Below are positions 19,428-28,000 of a stretch of DNA of 36,794 bases, in pieces. The stretch lies in NCBI GenBank assembly GCA_021014945.1, contig MU266590.1, forward strand, positions 1 to 36,794, given 5' to 3'. Each line of letters opens with the position of its first letter. Position 1 is the first letter of the stretch. Made by a program: the position numbers and the translations under genes. This DNA is from Leucogyrophana mollusca. Its lineage: Eukaryota; Basidiomycota; Agaricomycetes; Boletales. Below the pieces are notes generated by a model that saw nothing but the letters and a program-made list of their open reading frames with translations, ran no database searches and was not told where the DNA came from.

Positions 19428-21087
19428 ATGGCGAAAATAGTTGCTTTCTTCGCTCTCCTCGCGCTACAAACTCGCGCTTTGTCACCAAAGTATGTGGCTT
19501 GCCAGTTACAAAAGCCGGAGGGAATATCGCCACTCCTGGGGTGTCCAGAAGGGACTTTGTACGTTTCCCCGACCGACTCTACAGCAACTTTCGCCAGCGT
19601 GCAAGATGCTGTTCAGTCTCTGTAAGAGTTGATTGACTTCCGTTGTCCTAACATACCGAGAAGCGAATCTCCAACAGCCCAGACACAGGCAGCGCCACCA
19701 TACTCATTGGTGAAGGACAATATTTCGAAGCCGTAAACGTATCGCGTACAGGTCCCCTCACTCTTTTGGTATGATCTAAGGCGTGTTCTGTCGTACTTCT
19801 CTGAACGCGCCTCTCTTTAGGGTCAGCTAAACGCTGATACAGCTTTTGATCCTGCTGGGAATTCATCAACTCGAAATCTCGTGCAGATCTGGAATAACAA
19901 ATATGTCCTAACAGGCATGGATGACGCTCAGTCGGCTGTCCTTACAGTCGCTCCCTCTTTCAATGCGTCGCTGATTGGCGCGGGGACCAATGGCGCTCCG
20001 CTGCAACCGCTGTTCGGAAACACAGATTTCAAGGCTTACAATATCGATTTCGAAAATTTGGCAGTGTGTACCAAGTTCTCTCTATATGTGAAGTCGTTCA
20101 TCGGGCTGCCCCAGGCAAATTACTCCATCTCCCAAGCCCTTGTAACTGATATTTCCTACGCGAATGCATCTTTCTATGGATGTACTTTCGCTAGTTACCA
20201 GGATACATGGTATACTGGCCGGAATGCCAGCACCTACGTTGTCGACAGTATCATCTTTGGCCAGACAGATTGTAAGCTCCTTTCACCCGCCTTCCAGTAA
20301 ATAACATCCGCTGATCCGCGCAGACCTATTCGGCTTTGGCACTGCGTACGTGCAGCGAGGTTTTGTGCCGATACGCACATAGCTAATAGTCCCTTTAGAT
20401 GGTTCCAGTCGATCACGCTTGCTAACCGGGCGTGCGGAGGAGGTATCGTCGCATGGAAGGGCACCAATCTGACCGCTGCCCCCGGAAATCGTTACGGGGC
20501 ATATATATCCGACTCAAGGATAATTCGTGTGCGTACCATTTCGTGTAACTATCCACGTCTCATCAGTACTTATTCGTCTCCTCGAACCAAGTCCCCTGAT
20601 GCCAATGCAACAGCAGTGACTCTAGATTCTTGCTGGCTTGGTAAGAATTGCCCGTCAGATATACGAACCCACCTTGCTGACTTTCGATCCTACCACGAAG
20701 GACGACCATGGAACGATCTTGCGACCACAGTTTATCTCCGAACATACATGGACGATAGTATTCAGCCAGCGGGCTTTGAGCCATTTGACAGTGCTAGGTA
20801 TCCGCCTCCGATCTTATGCGTTTTATCCTTTCTAATGCTCCTCCCCCTAAAGACCAGTCATCGCGAACACGACGTACTACGCAGAATATGACTCTTATGG
20901 TATGGCTACAAGTTCCCGTGCGGTCAAACTCAAGCTGAACAGGTTCGTTCCCACAGGCCCTGGAGCAAACACGTCGGCACGGGTGCCAATTGAACATATT
21001 TTGGACACGTCGGAGGCGCAGAACTTCACAATCGAGGGCGTATTTCTGGAGAGGCCGCAGTGGATTGACTACGACTACGTGTACTGA
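19428..21087 (+). CDS. Secreted pectin methylesterase 1 (carbohydrate esterase family 8)
   Basis: Ten exons: 19428-19621, 19678-19768, 19821-20063, 20115-20271, 20324-20345, 20399-20528, 20592-20640, 20701-20797, 20853-20899, 20957-21087. They sum to 1161 nt, giving 386 residues. A signal peptide is evident (MAKIVAFFALLALQTRA). The CE8 beta-helix motifs are in order: LVQIWNN, FKAYNIDFEN, the first active-site Gln in SISQALV, FASYQDTWYTG with the catalytic acid Asp, the nucleophile Asp in FGQTDYLFGFGTA, and the substrate-binding Arg in LGRPWNDL. The enzyme removes methyl groups from homogalacturonan in plant cell walls and opens it to pectinases. It is a paralogue of the gene at 23456. Exon 5 is only 22 nt, and it carries the nucleophile motif. 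Confidence 0.92.
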
Positions 21088-21922
21088 GGCATCGGTTGTT
21101 TACAGTGCACAAGTTTGCTCACTGCAGATTGACTGCAGGGCCATGACACATCCGTTGCCCTGTGATCCGAGCTGTCGTTGGCTGAGAGAACCTTGGCACC
21201 CACTGGGCAGGTGCACAAGATGAAACGCGTTATCTCTCTCACATGACCCTATTTTGACTTAAGCTGGATGAGTTATTGATGGTAATGATGAACACGAATC
21301 CAGGGTCACCGCCTCCTCAGCGCAGGATTCGTGATGGTGACTGATCGCTGTGCGTGCCTCAACCTCTCGTTAATGGTACTTCGTACTTACATATTTCTCG
21401 TCATTTCTGGCTGGATGTTATTTGCCAGGATGCTAGCAGTAGCACAAGGTCGTCAGCAAAGAGAAAGGGCTTTCGCGCGACCGCCAGTTGCCAGTAACTA
21501 TGGGACCAGAGATCCTAAAGTAAAGGTTGCATCATATCTCTTGCGCCCCATGGCTCCTGTGATGGACCAAAGGGGACCAGGTTCAAGGCTGTGGTTCGGC
21601 GGCTTTGGTGCATGTATGGCATAGCTGAATTGGCTGTGCCCCATCAAACGTACAACTTCAAATGGGTCGCGAGGCTTATGGGTATAAAACAGCGAGAGAC
21701 ACGGTGGATTCGCTAGCCTTTCTTTCTTTTCGTTTGGCCCACCTCAGGTACTGGCTAGTAAGTCTCCAACCTTCCCTTGTTGCGCAGATCGCTGACGATA
21801 TGATATCTGCAGCCTGCTTCGTGTTCTTTCATTCACTAGTTGCTCCTTGACGGACTTCCTCCTTGTTTAATCACCAACTATCTTGATCGTCCCTCAAATC
21901 ATCCTATCAACAGTCATTAATA
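21088..21922. promoter_or_regulatory. Upstream region of the peptide precursor, with a TATA box
   Basis: This stretch separates pectin methylesterase 1 from the peptide precursor. A good TATA box, TATAAAA, is at 21683-21689, some 234 bp before the ATG at 21923, implying a long 5' UTR, possibly with an intron. The plus-strand open frame at 21331-21624 has no family resemblance and no splice continuation, so I do not call it a gene. Confidence 0.45.
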
Positions 21923-22854
21923 ATGCGTTCTACTCTCGCTTTCTGCGTTGTCGCCGCCGCCGTCGCGCCCGCCCTAGCCATCCCTGCTCCCGTCCCTGCT
22001 TCGTGAGTACCTTGCGCTACCCAAATTGTTTTTTTCCTTACCCATTGTTATCTTCTAGTGCTAGGGGTACGAAGACGGTTAATGCCAGATGGTCTCCTCC
22101 TCCCATCCCGTCGCCGCCTCCCATCCCATCGCCACCACCGATCCCCTCATGCTGGGAAACGCGCAGTTGTAAACGAGACGATCTCACAACGGATATCACG
22201 AACCTGATCAACCAGGCGGTCAAGCAAGGCGTTATTACCCAGGATGACGCGCAGACGCTAGAGAAGCTCCCCGGGTGAGCTCCTTCGCCAGTCGATCCAT
22301 CGCTGTTTCTTAACCAATAACCTGTGTTAGGCTGGTCAACCCCTCGGACTTGCAGAATCTGCTGGACGCTCTTACGACTGACATCAAGGCGTTCATTCCT
22401 ACACAGACTTCGGCTACCACCACATCCAAGAGAGATGACCTGAAGACTGAGATCTTGAACCTCATCCAGGAGGCCGTGACTCAAGGCGTCATTACTCAAG
22501 ATGAGGCGAATACTCTGGACCAGCTTGTTAAGTATGTGCTTTTCATAACCGACTTACTTCACTGCCTGACATCTGCTCAGCGTTGTCGACTCCTCAAGTT
22601 TCCAGAGCCTGCTTGATTCTCTTGCGACTGATATCAGAGCCTTCCTGCCAACATCGACGCAGTCTAAGAGATGGTGGTCCCCGCCCCCGATTCCATCACC
22701 TCCTCCGATTCCGTCGTGTTGGTGGAGTCGTAGCTGCAAACGCGATGCAGATCTTGCGGAGAGATGGTGGTCGCCTCCTCCGATCCCGTCGCCCCCTCCG
22801 ATTCCTTCGTGCTGGTGGAGCCGTAGTTGCAGGCGGGAGGTAGACCTCGATTAG
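21923..22854 (+). CDS. Secreted, repeated peptide precursor with Kex2-type sites (novel)
   Basis: Four exons: 21923-22002, 22059-22274, 22331-22531, 22581-22854. They sum to 771 nt, giving 256 residues. Residues 1-19 form a signal peptide ending in APALA. Residues 38-64 are peptide copy 1, closed by Lys-Arg 65-66. Residues 67-133 and 134-196 are two copies of a helical spacer, each ending in Ser-Lys-Arg. Residues 197-218 are copy 2 (Lys-Arg before and after), and 228-249 are copy 3 (Glu-Arg before, Arg-Arg after); the tail is EVDLD. Each copy has the plan Trp, repeated SPPPIP units, then Cys-x5-Cys. Lys-Arg is the cleavage site of the Golgi protease Kex2, so release of short secreted peptides is inferred. 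There is no CaaX box, so it is not a basidiomycete a-type pheromone precursor. It resembles no family I know. A structural Pro-rich secreted protein is the main alternative. Confidence 0.85.
22090..22170 (+). repeat. Peptide copy 1 of the precursor (27 residues)
   Basis: Residues 38-64. One Trp, three SPPPIP units, then Ser followed by CWETRSC. Lys-Arg (22171-22176) follows directly. The residue before the Trp is a single Arg preceded by Ala, so the N-terminal cleavage is less clear than in copy 2. Relative to copies 2 and 3 it has one more Pro-rich unit, one Trp fewer at the start, and Glu-Thr where they have Trp-Ser between the cysteines. Confidence 0.8.
22177..22433 (+). repeat. Helical spacer repeat A of the precursor
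   Basis: Residues 67-133, interrupted by the intron 22275-22330. It starts DDLTTDITNLINQAVKQGVI, continues TQDDAQTLEKL, and after the intron has DLQNLLDALTTDIKAFIPT, a Thr-rich stretch and Ser-Lys-Arg. It is clearly homologous to spacer B. The pattern of Leu, Ile and Val suggests amphipathic helices. The Lys-Arg at each end could release it as a separate chain. Confidence 0.8.
22434..22671 (+). repeat. Helical spacer repeat B of the precursor
   Basis: Residues 134-196, interrupted by the intron 22532-22580. It starts DDLKTEILNLIQEAVTQGVI, continues TQDEANTLDQL, and after the intron has FQSLLDSLATDIRAFLPT and ends in Gln-Ser-Lys-Arg. Its intron sits at the same place and in the same phase (after the second base of a codon) as that of spacer A, so the duplication probably included the intron. 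Confidence 0.8.
22672..22737 (+). repeat. Peptide copy 2 of the precursor (22 residues)
   Basis: Residues 197-218: Trp-Trp, two SPPPIP units, Ser, then CWWSRSC. It is preceded by Lys-Arg and followed by Lys-Arg (22738-22743), so it has the cleanest processing sites of the three copies. Confidence 0.85.
22765..22830 (+). repeat. Peptide copy 3 of the precursor (22 residues)
   Basis: Residues 228-249. Identical in protein to copy 2, but 11 of the 22 codons differ, all synonymously. It is preceded by the linker DADLAER, which offers only a monobasic site, and followed by Arg-Arg and the short acidic tail EVDLD. Confidence 0.85.
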
Positions 22855-23455: not shown

Positions 23456-25063
23456 ATGAAACGCATCGCTGTAGCTCTCGTCGTCCTTGTGGGGCTTGTT
23501 TCGCGGAATTATGGACTGTCCCCTACATACACAGCATGCCAACTGCAAAAGCCTGCAGCTGCATCTCCTTTGACCGGGTGCCCCGAAGGTACCCTGTTCG
23601 TGTCCCCGACTGATTCGAGGGCCGACTTCACAAGTGTCCAGGAAGCTGTACTTTCACTGTGAGCCTTCCTACAGCAGTTGTTGGTATGGTTATCCTCATC
23701 CTCCGTAGTCCGGAGTCAGGTGACGCGACAATCCTCATCGGAGAAGGTGAATATTTCGAGATGGTCAATGTAACGCGCTCGGCCCCTGTTACTCTCTTGG
23801 TAACTGAAATTTTTGCCCCGCGCGGTTACAAGTTCTCCTGACACACTGTCGCGCTCTAGGGTCAATTGGACCCTGAAACAGCTTTCGATCCTGCGGGGAA
23901 CGCGTCTCAGCGTAACCTTGTGCAGATCTGGAACAATATTTATGTCAAAGACGGCTTGACCGACGAAGAGACAGCAACTCTCACCGTGGCCCCTCCTTCG
24001 GGCGTCCAGTTTGGCAATGTCAACTTCAGAGCCTACAACATCGACTTCGAGAACCGCGCTGTAAGTGTCAGTCAGATCAGCCACGTTCTCTACCTGATAG
24101 TGTATCGAGGCCAACTACTCAATTTCCCAAGCCCTTGTGACATCCGTGATGTATGCGAACGCTTCCTTCTACGGATGTGCATTTGCAAGCTATCAAGATA
24201 CGTGGTACACTGGCCATGGTGCGAGCACCTATGCTGTTGATAGCATCATTTATGGTCAAACTGATTGTAAGCATGCGAGCGTCCTATCAAATCGAGTGTC
24301 GAGTGTCCGACTGACATAGTTCTAATTAGACCTCTTTGGTTTCGGAACGGCGTAAGCCATTTGTTGCGAAGTCTTTCCATCGAAATTCATTCTATAATCA
24401 CGTTGCAGTTGGTTCCAATCTGTCACCCTCGCAAACCGTGCCTGCGGAGGGGGAATAACAGCATGGCAGGGCACTAATGGTACCAGGTACGGCGCTTACA
24501 TCGCGGACTCCCGGATCATGCGAGTGAGTATTGTTGTGCATCCAGCTTACCCAAACTAACGTCAGCGCCGTAGTCGCCCGACGCCAATGCCACGACAGTG
24601 ACCGACTACTCGTGCTTCTTAGGTGAGCTCTGGCTTTATATGATAAGAGCAACAGCAATGAATGGTATGCTCATCAGGCCGAGACTGGAACCCTGAAGCG
24701 GTTGCGGTATACCTCCGTAACTATATGGACGAAAGCATCCAGCCTGCTGGGTTCACTCCTTGGGACGGAGAGTACGCCGAGTCCTGCTTCTCATCTCACT
24801 GTAAGGTTTCTGACCCTGGCTCCAGGACCACCGTTCCCAACACTACTTATTACGCCGAATTCGATTCGTATGGTGAGTACACCCTTAAATGGTGAACTTT
24901 GCTGTCATAATTAAGATATCTGGATGCAGGACCGGGTGGAAATACGTCTGCCAGAGTACCACAGGACCATATCCTCACAGCTGTGCAAGCGCAAAACTTC
25001 ACTCTGGAGGACGTGTTCTATGGCACCCCTGCCTGGATTGACTTCGAATACGAGTATCTTTAG
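23456..25063 (+). CDS. Secreted pectin methylesterase 2 (carbohydrate esterase family 8)
   Basis: Ten exons: 23456-23658, 23709-23799, 23860-24060, 24110-24266, 24330-24351, 24409-24523, 24574-24622, 24678-24771, 24826-24872, 24930-25063. They sum to 1113 nt, giving 370 residues. The signal peptide is MKRIAVALVVLVGLVSRNYG. It is a paralogue of the gene at 19428: exons 2, 4, 5, 7 and 9 have exactly the same lengths (91, 157, 22, 49 and 47 nt), and all intron positions correspond. The active-site motifs SISQALV, FASYQDTWYTG and YGQTDYLFGFGTA are intact. Two differences stand out: the loop GTNLTAAPGNRYG of copy 1 is shortened to GTNGTRYG, and the normally invariant Pro after the catalytic Arg is Asp (LGRDWNPE). 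It probably de-esterifies pectin, perhaps with a different pattern or pH range. Confidence 0.92.
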
Positions 25064-28000
25064 GGCTGTCACGTAGTTGAAAACCCTCAGGCCTGTACGT
25101 CGTGATAGCGTCGTTCGTCTCAAATGCACGAGATAGAAGCCAGCGACCGTCACAATCGAATTGCAGGAAACGAAACACAAAAGTGCAGTGATCATGTACA
25201 TGGAGAAAAAAAAGACACAACAAAAACGAAAAACGGGCAGATGAAGAAAAAGGTCGTCTGGCATAGAAGTCAATGTGTGACGAGCCAGAGGGGGTGACGA
25301 GCGGCAGTATGAAGTGCCCTCGCCTCGGGAAGTGATGTCGACTAAGGGACAAAGCAAAAGTCACAACAGATAGTCAGCGCAAGAGAGGGTCTCCCAAGTG
25401 GCAGAGCAACGGTCAAGCACGCGCGCACTACGACTTACGCTCGCGAACGAGCAGCGTAGAAGCAACGTGCCCGACCAAGTGTTGCCCAAACCACTCCAGC
25501 ACGAGGTGCCCAAGAAGGGGCAGGCCAGGACTATGTGCACCATCGTCAACGACAGCACACATGATCAAGTCCGAGCACGCCCTGTGTAGAATACCACACG
25601 TCAGACCTTTTGATCACACCACAGAAAAGCAGGCAGAGACAAACCTCGTGATGGTGGTAGACCTACCCCGGTGCCGCACAACAAGGCCAGCGGCTTCCAT
25701 GAAGCCCACTGCAATCAACCTCCGGGGCGGATTCGGCGTTACTCACGGGAAGCCGGATGACCAGCATCCAGCCCTCTCCGGTGCTGGTAGTCGGTCGTTC
25801 AGGAGACGGCGCCAAACCTGCAAGAAAGGCATCCAGACAGGTCGGAAGGCACAACAGCTCAGGGGCACACAAAGAGCGACATCTGTAAAGCAAAATGTTC
25901 TATCTACGGGCGCAGGAGGAGGGCAAGGTGATCATGCAGGGCACTAACACCTCGCCCACCCCCCACAGTGCGCGGGCCTGAGCCCGCAGAACGACTGTAA
26001 GCAACAGCCAATCAAATCCGAGACTAAGACGACGTACCGTCTGTCATGCATGGATGTGCAGTTCGTTCTAGGTTAGTAAATCGCTGCTGTGTGTGCCCCT
26101 TCGCAAGTGTCTTGCCTCGCTGCCTGTAGCCTTTCAGGCGCAGGTGTCTTGAATGGCAGCTCCCTATTAGACGCAGCTACACGGACCGGAGCCCGCTTGC
26201 TCCGCCGCCGCCTAGAGGAGATTGACAGTAAGCCTCACTTCAACCACCTTGCTGTGACGGCGTGCGCCGCCCATCTGTCGTTGTATTCTGAAGAGCCAAT
26301 GGATCAGCCCAGGAACTTGCGTGCGAGGGGAAGAGAACACATACTGCTATGTCGCTCAGGCGACGCCTGCCATGACCTGGCAGGTGCACAACAAGTTGAA
26401 GTCGCTAAGAAGATTTAGGCTGAGGTTCTGCGAGAGAAGAGCGCGAAGGCCGTGGAACTTACTGCGATGCTGCTAGGGCAGTGCTCGCCGTAACCTGGCA
26501 GGTACCCCCCTGAATGCGCAGTCTGTCGCGGACGTGAGACTAATTATCTCCGGAAGTTAGATGGCTTCACCAACGAAGCACTGACATGCCTACCTCGAAA
26601 AGATCCGACGACAAGGGACTCGCCTGCATCCTTTGAGGCTTGACAGACATTGACAATGCCGGTGCCCAGTAAAAGGCTTGAAGGTGACGACCAAGTGAAA
26701 CGAGCAAGCAAAGTAAAATAAAAAGGGGTAAAGAATAAAAAGGAGGGAAAGAAAAACAATAAATGGACGGTGCAATTCGATGTGACGGGGGACATTGGCA
26801 GAAGGGAGTGTCGGGTAAAGGAGTGTGGCGAGCCACGAGCCACCCTGAAGCGCTATGCGTCGTGTTACTTGCCGATCAAACATAAAGGATAGAACATATC
26901 ATACGCGAGGATGCACTTCGTTTGGCTAATGGCTTTGCGGCATGAAATACGAAAAACGAGTTGTTGTTGGCCGCGGCACGGGACCAAGGTCGTCCAGCGG
27001 ATAAGTCACTAGGTCTTGTCAGCCTAGTCGCGGGCGTGCTATGGTCAGGTATTGGGTCACTCGGGATGATTCTGTAGAACGGCACATAAAGCGTACCCGG
27101 CCAGAGGCTATCACAAGCAGTTAGTTCTGCTGGTTCCCGAGCGCGTAGTGATGATCAAACTCACGTAGTATTGCTATCATAGCATGGTCGTTGCCACACA
27201 TGGAGCGCACACTGGGTCAGCATGGTTAGGCAATTTCAGTTACGATGTATAAGGAAACATACGTCGGATGATCCCAGTCGGCGCACCACGAACGCGTGGA
27301 GATGATAAGATGCCCGGGATCATTGGACACGGATAATCGCCTCAATGCCACAGCCTTTAAGGATCGAGCAGAGCGTCAGTGTCAACGGGAGCAGAGAGTT
27401 GTGTATGATTCACTTCAAAAGAGTGTTTATGCACTGCCCAAGACACGGTAACCATTGGCACGCGAATGTAGGGCATAGAAGCGTGGCACAACTGTTGACA
27501 AAGTCCAGTTCCGAGTCAAATCTAACAAGATGCTCGCCAGAAAATCAAGAGAACTTACGCTGACAACAATCATACCCAACTCCATAGAAATGAACCCTCT
27601 GGAGGCCGGAGGCTGCGGATACTGAAAGCGCCACCGAAGCCAATACGCGCCAACTGGGTGGCACGACTGCAATAGTCGTCTGTCTACAGGGCACTTGCGG
27701 ACTGTGTTTCGCCACGGCAAGGAACTACGAGCACAAATATCAGCCGCGGGGCCTGGTAGGAGGAAAGAGAGGTTGACCCACAAGCCGGATCGCAGGACCA
27801 GTGACAACGAAGGGGAAGTGGTGTAAGTATGGGGAATAGCTGGATGCAGGACCAATCGCAAACCCGATAGGGTTCATATAGGGCTTTGGGCGACGCTTTG
27901 ACCTGTGGCGGTGATGTGTGGAATATTGGTGATTAACGTTCTGAGTGGTGGGGGGTACCCGACCGAGCACCGATCGGGTATCTGAGATCAAAGATCTCAT

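Follow-up and report, generated by a model that had tools for sequence, protein, structure and literature searches.

A probable Kex2-processed precursor of Trp/Pro/Cys peptides in Leucogyrophana mollusca, with relatives in boletes

The window analyzed here, a stretch of 36,794 nucleotides from Leucogyrophana mollusca, contains a gene for a protein in which short Trp/Pro/Cys peptides recur among dibasic sites. Is this protein a precursor from which small secreted peptides are released? Judging from its sequence, we consider it quite probable that it is a prepropeptide, cut by Kex2-type processing into small secreted peptides. The peptides belong to a genuine and conserved family in boletes that appears to be undescribed.

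Gene, precursor and peptide copies

The gene (21923-22854, + strand) has four exons and encodes 256 residues, with splicing computed from the sequence.

21683..21689, + strand: TATA-like element, about 240 nt 5' of the ATG, as read directly from the sequence
21923..22002, + strand: exon 1, encoding the hydrophobic leader MRSTLAFCVVAAAVAPALA (splice model; leader aligned with relatives)
22059..22274, + strand: exon 2 (splice model)
22331..22531, + strand: exon 3 (splice model)
22581..22854, + strand: exon 4 including the stop (splice model; an acceptor ending at 22598 is an in-frame alternative)

All three introns are of the GT-AG type (56, 56 and 49 nt) and in phase 2. When GT/AG pairs were tried around introns 2 and 3 within short ranges, intron 1 being fixed, two combinations remained open, yielding 256 or 250 amino acids and differing solely in the third acceptor (22580 versus 22598). 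Splicing that would remove the repeats had been a concern of the earlier note; both predicted variants retain all three. P0001, one of the relatives listed below, aligns with the leader (exon 1), with a stretch spanning intron 2, and with the exon 4 stretch before KR-W, so that relatives back the exon chain. The spliced 256-residue protein with a leader and three peptide copies, as described in the earlier note, is thereby confirmed.

Downstream of the leader, the precursor consists of peptide 1, KR, unit A, KR, unit B, KR, peptide 2, KR, DADLAER, peptide 3, RR and EVDLD. Except for the two units, these features were read from the protein sequence.

22084..22089, + strand: AR, residues 36-37, single-Arg site ahead of copy 1
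22090..22170, + strand: peptide copy 1, WSPPPIPSPPPIPSPPPIPSCWETRSC, residues 38-64
22171..22176, + strand: KR, residues 65-66
22177..22427, + strand: acidic unit A, residues 67-131, probably helical, with intron 22275-22330 inside (P0001 model)
22428..22433, + strand: KR, residues 132-133
22434..22665, + strand: unit B, residues 134-194, duplicate of unit A, with intron 22532-22580 inside (A/B alignment)
22666..22671, + strand: KR, residues 195-196
22672..22737, + strand: peptide copy 2, WWSPPPIPSPPPIPSCWWSRSC, residues 197-218
22738..22743, + strand: KR, residues 219-220
22744..22764, + strand: spacer DADLAER, residues 221-227, with a single-Arg site at its end
22765..22830, + strand: peptide copy 3, WWSPPPIPSPPPIPSCWWSRSC, residues 228-249
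22831..22836, + strand: RR, residues 250-251
22837..22854, + strand: C-terminal tail EVDLD and stop, without a CaaX box

The leader is a probable signal peptide whose cleavage site is placed roughly after residue 19, a call made from hydrophobicity and alignment only; it is alignable in four relatives (P0001, P0003, P0004 and P0005). All five dibasic sites lie where they had been placed before (65-66, 132-133, 195-196, 219-220 and 250-251), and are followed by DD, DD, WW, DA and EV. A KR/RR count at least as high as that observed arose in 99 of 100,000 shuffles of the post-leader chain. Enrichment was much weaker when KR, RR, KK and RK were counted together (3,280 of 100,000). A dibasic pair directly follows all three peptide copies and directly precedes one. 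Copy 2 is the only one with dibasic sites on both sides, and for this copy the description of peptides lying between Kex2-type sites holds; it does not for copies 1 and 3, which follow a single Arg (NAR and AER, respectively).

The three copies share the motif W-S-PPPIPS-CW-x4-C. The earlier note had counted three copies of one peptide, which is accurate for copies 2 and 3, the same 22-mer, while copy 1 is a 27-mer variant with one leading Trp, three SPPPIP units and the loop ETRS. For the 22-mer, the computed monoisotopic mass is 2562.198 Da in the linear and 2560.182 Da in the disulfide form (27-mer: 2921.424 and 2919.409 Da), and pI and GRAVY are 8.07 and -0.5; a sequence search with the 22-mer against solved structures gave no match at E <= 10. 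Each peptide copy contributes two Cys, and these six are the only ones in the predicted secreted chain (Cys 8 would be removed with the leader), which favors one ring per peptide in the window protein.

The codons reveal constraint on the peptides. Copies 2 and 3 differ at 11 of 66 nucleotides, all 11 changes being synonymous and none amino-acid-changing, and random placement of 11 changes left the peptide intact in 0 of 200,000 trials. By the Nei-Gojobori method, the 11 changes fall on 14.7 synonymous sites, so that dS is saturated and not estimable, and dN is 0. Between copies 1 and 2, the 15-residue scaffold likewise shows 11 synonymous and no amino acid changes; adding the loop (20 residues in all) brings dN to 0.08. 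Since units A and B differ with a dN of 0.27 (dS 1.4), the silent-only divergence indicates stronger constraint on the peptide than on the spacers, in a comparison that involves few sites and many synonyms for Pro and Ser codons.

Units A and B align with a score of 183 (1,000 shuffles: mean -9, maximum 29). Introns 2 and 3 lie at about equivalent positions of these homologous modules, both in phase 2, and the module was therefore probably duplicated together with its intron. A Pfam search with the 256-residue protein gave 19 weak families at E <= 10, none above the curated cut-off. A known domain was rejected as an explanation; these matches are mutually inconsistent and nearly all lie in the helical units.

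Relatives in boletes and genomic setting

Relatives were identified by a single-sequence search (5 proteins at E <= 1) and a profile search (10 proteins at E <= 10, including the first 5). Scoring in these whole-protein searches was limited to the 7,990 and 7,992 candidates with the most words in common with the query, so a restriction of the peptide family to Boletales is not established. Seven of the ten carry an organism name, in each case Boletus, Imleria or Pisolithus.

P0001: Imleria badia
P0002, P0005 and P0007: Boletus edulis
P0004: Boletus reticuloceps
P0003 and P0006: Pisolithus albus

Imleria and Pisolithus were assigned to Boletales by taxonomy look-up, and Boletus belongs there as well. 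P0010 is a marginal match (E 0.06) with the motif present.

A scan of the ten relatives for [IV]PS[CS]W, which misses copies lacking this string, found 14 copies (1-3 per protein), making 17 copies in 11 proteins together with the three of the window. In an aligned 14-residue segment, 13 of the 17 are distinct; P0004, P0005, P0007 and P0008 hardly differ in their C-terminal peptide, which leaves fewer than 17 independent copies. Entropy over the distinct segments was 1.4-2.2 bits for the four positions between the Cys versus 0-0.8 bits for PPxIPSCW. Counted by eye, all 17 copies have Trp after the Cys position (as the scan string requires), 16/17 have the first Cys, 15/17 the second and 14/17 both. 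KR or RR was likewise counted by eye shortly upstream of 14/17 copies, the exceptions being window copies 1 and 3 and P0010.

These figures support the earlier proposal of a family of secreted peptides that are putatively processed and perhaps disulfide-bonded. The disulfide part of the proposal fits the 14 copies with both Cys and cannot be extended to all, as the second Cys is lost in 2/17 copies (P0001 copies 2 and 3, one of them with Tyr in its place) and the first in 1/17 (P0009 copy 2). Because of these one-Cys copies in P0001 and P0009, and because P0004 and P0005 have extra Cys beyond those of the peptide, the argument for one ring per peptide is not general.

Similarity to the helical units is present in P0001, P0003 and P0006 and was undetectable in P0004, P0005, P0007 and P0008, though these keep the peptide. 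Local phmmer with the spacer region gave E-values of 3.5e-4 for P0001 and 1.6e-4 for P0006; a database search with this region returned none of 362 scored candidates, yet both proteins were expected to pass at equal database size, so the empty result is no guide to whether other peptide families share the spacer. The predicted fold of P0001 (6-sequence alignment, mean pLDDT 60.9, peptides mostly low) contains helices at 67-83, 89-97 and 105-117, with pLDDT blocks of 79-87, in the part corresponding to unit A. A PDB fold search with this model gave 25 matches at E <= 10 and none at E <= 0.001, and no fold was assigned.

A full leader is present in six relatives (P0001, P0003, P0004, P0005, P0007 and P0008). 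In the database models it is shortened in P0006 and absent in P0002, P0009 and P0010, perhaps due to the gene models. P0010 (123 aa) continues, past its motif copy, with a stretch that by eye resembles another copy in a different frame; this may be a gene-prediction or sequence problem.

The family appears undescribed, to judge from literature searches on motif and topic. The strings PPPIPSC and PPPIPSPPPIPS were not found in openly accessible papers, and queries on Kex2-processed peptides of Boletales and on ribosomally synthesized peptides of Boletus edulis had no match. The main texts of PMC6339444 and PMC7329392 make no mention of Boletus, Pisolithus or Boletales, and the W-S-PPPIPS-CW-x4-C motif is not mentioned in the consulted parts of these two papers or of PMC9769878.

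The precursor gene is the only one of its kind found in the 32.3 Mb genome. Degenerate DNA searches with 0 mismatches for PIP-x-CW and for W-S/T-PP-x-IP gave 3 matches each, all in this gene (1 for either reversed control), and a protein query, with three candidates scored, found the precursor locus only. No paralogue was seen; a diverged one could escape these searches.

On the same strand, the gene is flanked by pectinesterase-type genes at 19428-21087 and at about 23456-25064, the latter extent being derived from similarity pieces and sequence reading, not from a spliced model. The left gene matches Pfam Pectinesterase (2.5e-24); pieces of the right gene with E <= 0.002 show 46-75% identity to the left one. 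Pfam also recognized, among the other neighbors, a ribosomal L5-type protein, two protein kinases, a short-chain reductase, an M16 peptidase and a CoA transferase; 8 of the 16 scanned sequences had no match, including two exon pieces from the pectinesterase genes.

UstYa (DUF3328) matches number 35 genome-wide at E <= 0.001, 34 of them over the cut-off. Many are exon pieces, so the gene number is below 35. They lie on 17 other contigs and none is on the contig that makes up the window, which covers some 21.9 kb on the left side of the precursor gene and 13.9 kb on its right. Several are on contig C364, where a separate repeat locus (minus strand, 2563-2939) carries the repeat GAD[KQ]P[EK]ELDSNLFVYDYKR four times: three copies share a frame behind a hydrophobic leader (a leader-like stretch at about 3.0-3.1 kb) and the fourth is in another frame, with introns assumed. 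The repeats are about 1.5 kb from the UstYa match at C364:4476-5225, and this locus is likely a dikaritin-type precursor cluster in the same genome.

One locus with a kexin-type P-domain was found; its frames include a hydrophobic segment and stretches that we take to be subtilase-like. Three kex2 genes are reported for C. cinerea (PMC9769878), so further kexin loci may have been missed here.

Proposed processing, function and alternative readings

In the route that we propose, the signal peptide would be removed in the ER and a disulfide between the two Cys of each copy would close a seven-residue ring. Kex2 in the Golgi would then cut after KR and RR, and with less certainty behind the single Arg that precedes copies 1 and 3; the basic residues would be trimmed off by a Kex1-type carboxypeptidase. 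Predicted products are the 22-mer WWSPPPIPSPPPIPSCWWSRSC in two copies, the 27-mer variant once and both acidic helical spacers. Peptides from Kex2-processed repeat proteins (KEPs) of mushrooms have been detected by mass spectrometry, and single-Arg cleavage products were inferred for mushroom KEPs expressed in Pichia (both in the part of PMC9769878 consulted), which makes release of all three window peptides plausible. Observations that count against Kex2 processing include the lack of an upstream dibasic site for two window copies and P0010, the incomplete leaders of four relatives, and a dibasic pair directly downstream of only 6/17 family copies (another 4 copies have a single residue between the Cys and the protein's end; both counts by eye).

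The product is probably a small, disulfide-closed secreted peptide; in its mature form, a stiff proline rod would begin with Trp and end in a small Cys-closed loop. The constant rod could present the variable loop to a binding partner, either in the fungus itself or in another organism. We suggest, with less confidence than for the processing, that it is a secreted signal or interaction peptide read through its loop. Signalling may be the likeliest role, at less than even odds, and an antimicrobial or some other biotic action is only a little less likely; the remainder is structural or unknown. In the sections of PMC9769878 consulted, six KEP knockouts in C. cinerea had no phenotype and synthetic KEP peptides revealed no specific function on bacteria, which weighs against assuming a hormone or antibacterial role. 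More speculatively, boletes may possess a 'rod-and-loop' class of secreted peptides from modular precursors with 1-3 copies, in which the rod is constant and four variable loop residues set the specificity for a receptor of the fungus or of a partner organism; we regard this wider reading as possible but doubtful.

Several other readings have to be weighed; they and Kex2 processing are not mutually exclusive, and our estimates for them and for it are not meant to add up to one. Hyphae might be coated by the peptides, or by the proline-rich protein in intact form, as surface or wall material that acts by bulk properties and without a receptor. This would be compatible with Kex2 processing and has a precedent in Rep1 of smut fungi, from which Kex2 processing yields peptides that are attached to hyphae (PMC6339444). 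It also suits the Trp/Pro-rich composition, pI and GRAVY of the 22-mer. We nevertheless judge it unlikely, since 1-3 copies per precursor and one genome locus would provide little for bulk, and a near-invariant scaffold with a variable loop is unlike a constraint on composition only. Also compatible with Kex2, and distinctly improbable, is further modification of the core, as in a RiPP cross-linked (for example Trp to Cys, or through oxidation of side chains) by enzymes whose genes lie elsewhere, much as UstY proteins act on dikaritins. Trp adjoining Cys is conserved and the UstYa matches on 17 other contigs show that such enzymes exist in the genome, but none of the 35 is on the 36.8-kb contig, the window cores have no Tyr, and the Pfam-matched neighbors, beside several frames without a match, include no tailoring enzyme from a known peptide pathway.

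The roles of spacer and peptide could also be reversed, with the acidic helical units as active products and the Trp/Pro peptides as linkers. The units have KR on both sides, are duplicated, have similar counterparts in P0001, P0003 and P0006, and the P0001 unit is predicted to be helical. Their much faster divergence than that of the peptides, and the missing similarity in the four relatives that retain the peptide (P0004, P0005, P0007 and P0008), make this very unlikely. Proline repeats expand easily, and the modest enrichment of all basic pairs (3,280 of 100,000 shuffles) would suit a low-complexity proline-rich frame with dibasic sites by chance. This reading is hardly credible, being contradicted by the purely synonymous divergence of copies 2 and 3, by relatives in three named genera, and by motif patterns that are absent elsewhere in the genome.

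Kex2 processing into small secreted peptides is thus the reading that we prefer. Little is known of what KEP-derived peptides do, according to the part of PMC9769878 consulted, and the bolete family offers a concrete testable case, with an exact predicted mass, a conserved scaffold and naturally variable loop, a single gene found, and natural one-Cys variants. Surveys requiring three repeats would miss forms with fewer copies, and mushrooms may thus have more such peptides than have been counted. What makes the family interesting is how cleanly conservation separates scaffold from loop, and how easily it can be tested, not a new principle.

Comparison with known systems

Basidiomycete a-factor-like lipopeptide pheromones are small peptides from a precursor as well. 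The window protein differs in its secretory-type leader and in ending VDLD; with a C-terminus of REVDLD and no CaaX box, a CaaX pheromone was rejected, in agreement with the earlier note.

Ascomycete alpha-factor-type precursors and their basidiomycete look-alikes resemble the window precursor in the organization of Kex2 sites, and their small peptides seem to be of the Trp/Pro/Cys kind as well. The core is different, and there are no repeated XA/XP STE13 dipeptides; in place of a STE13 ladder, a single DA follows the Kex2 sites, and this type was rejected.

Dikaritins (ustiloxin/phomopsin type) share cores repeated between Kex2 sites. The earlier note had drawn this parallel, which finds no support: the window contig has no UstYa gene (0/35 matches), and Tyr is missing from all three window cores. 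In the part of the PMC7329392 survey consulted, only 6.1% of basidiomycete KEPs have a DUF3328 gene nearby, so a missing UstYa neighbor is usual for a basidiomycete KEP.

Rep1 of Ustilago maydis, set beside the window precursor by description only, is likewise a Kex2-processed secreted precursor; few copies, a Cys pair and a specific conserved motif distinguish the window precursor from it.

The likeness to KEPs comprises a leader with a hydrophobic N-terminus, three near-identical peptides where at least three similar ones define a KEP, KR/RR sites, and no Pfam domain over the cut-off. The window precursor differs from KEPs in having only one copy with dibasic sites on both sides (KEP boundaries are KR/RR or KK, present here downstream of 3/3 copies and upstream of 1/3) and in its large duplicated helical spacers. 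One published pipeline requires three repeats (PMC6339444, consulted in part), and the relatives with one or two copies fall below that rule. With Kex2 cleavage predicted from its sites, the window precursor would work like a KEP, and it fits most of that definition.
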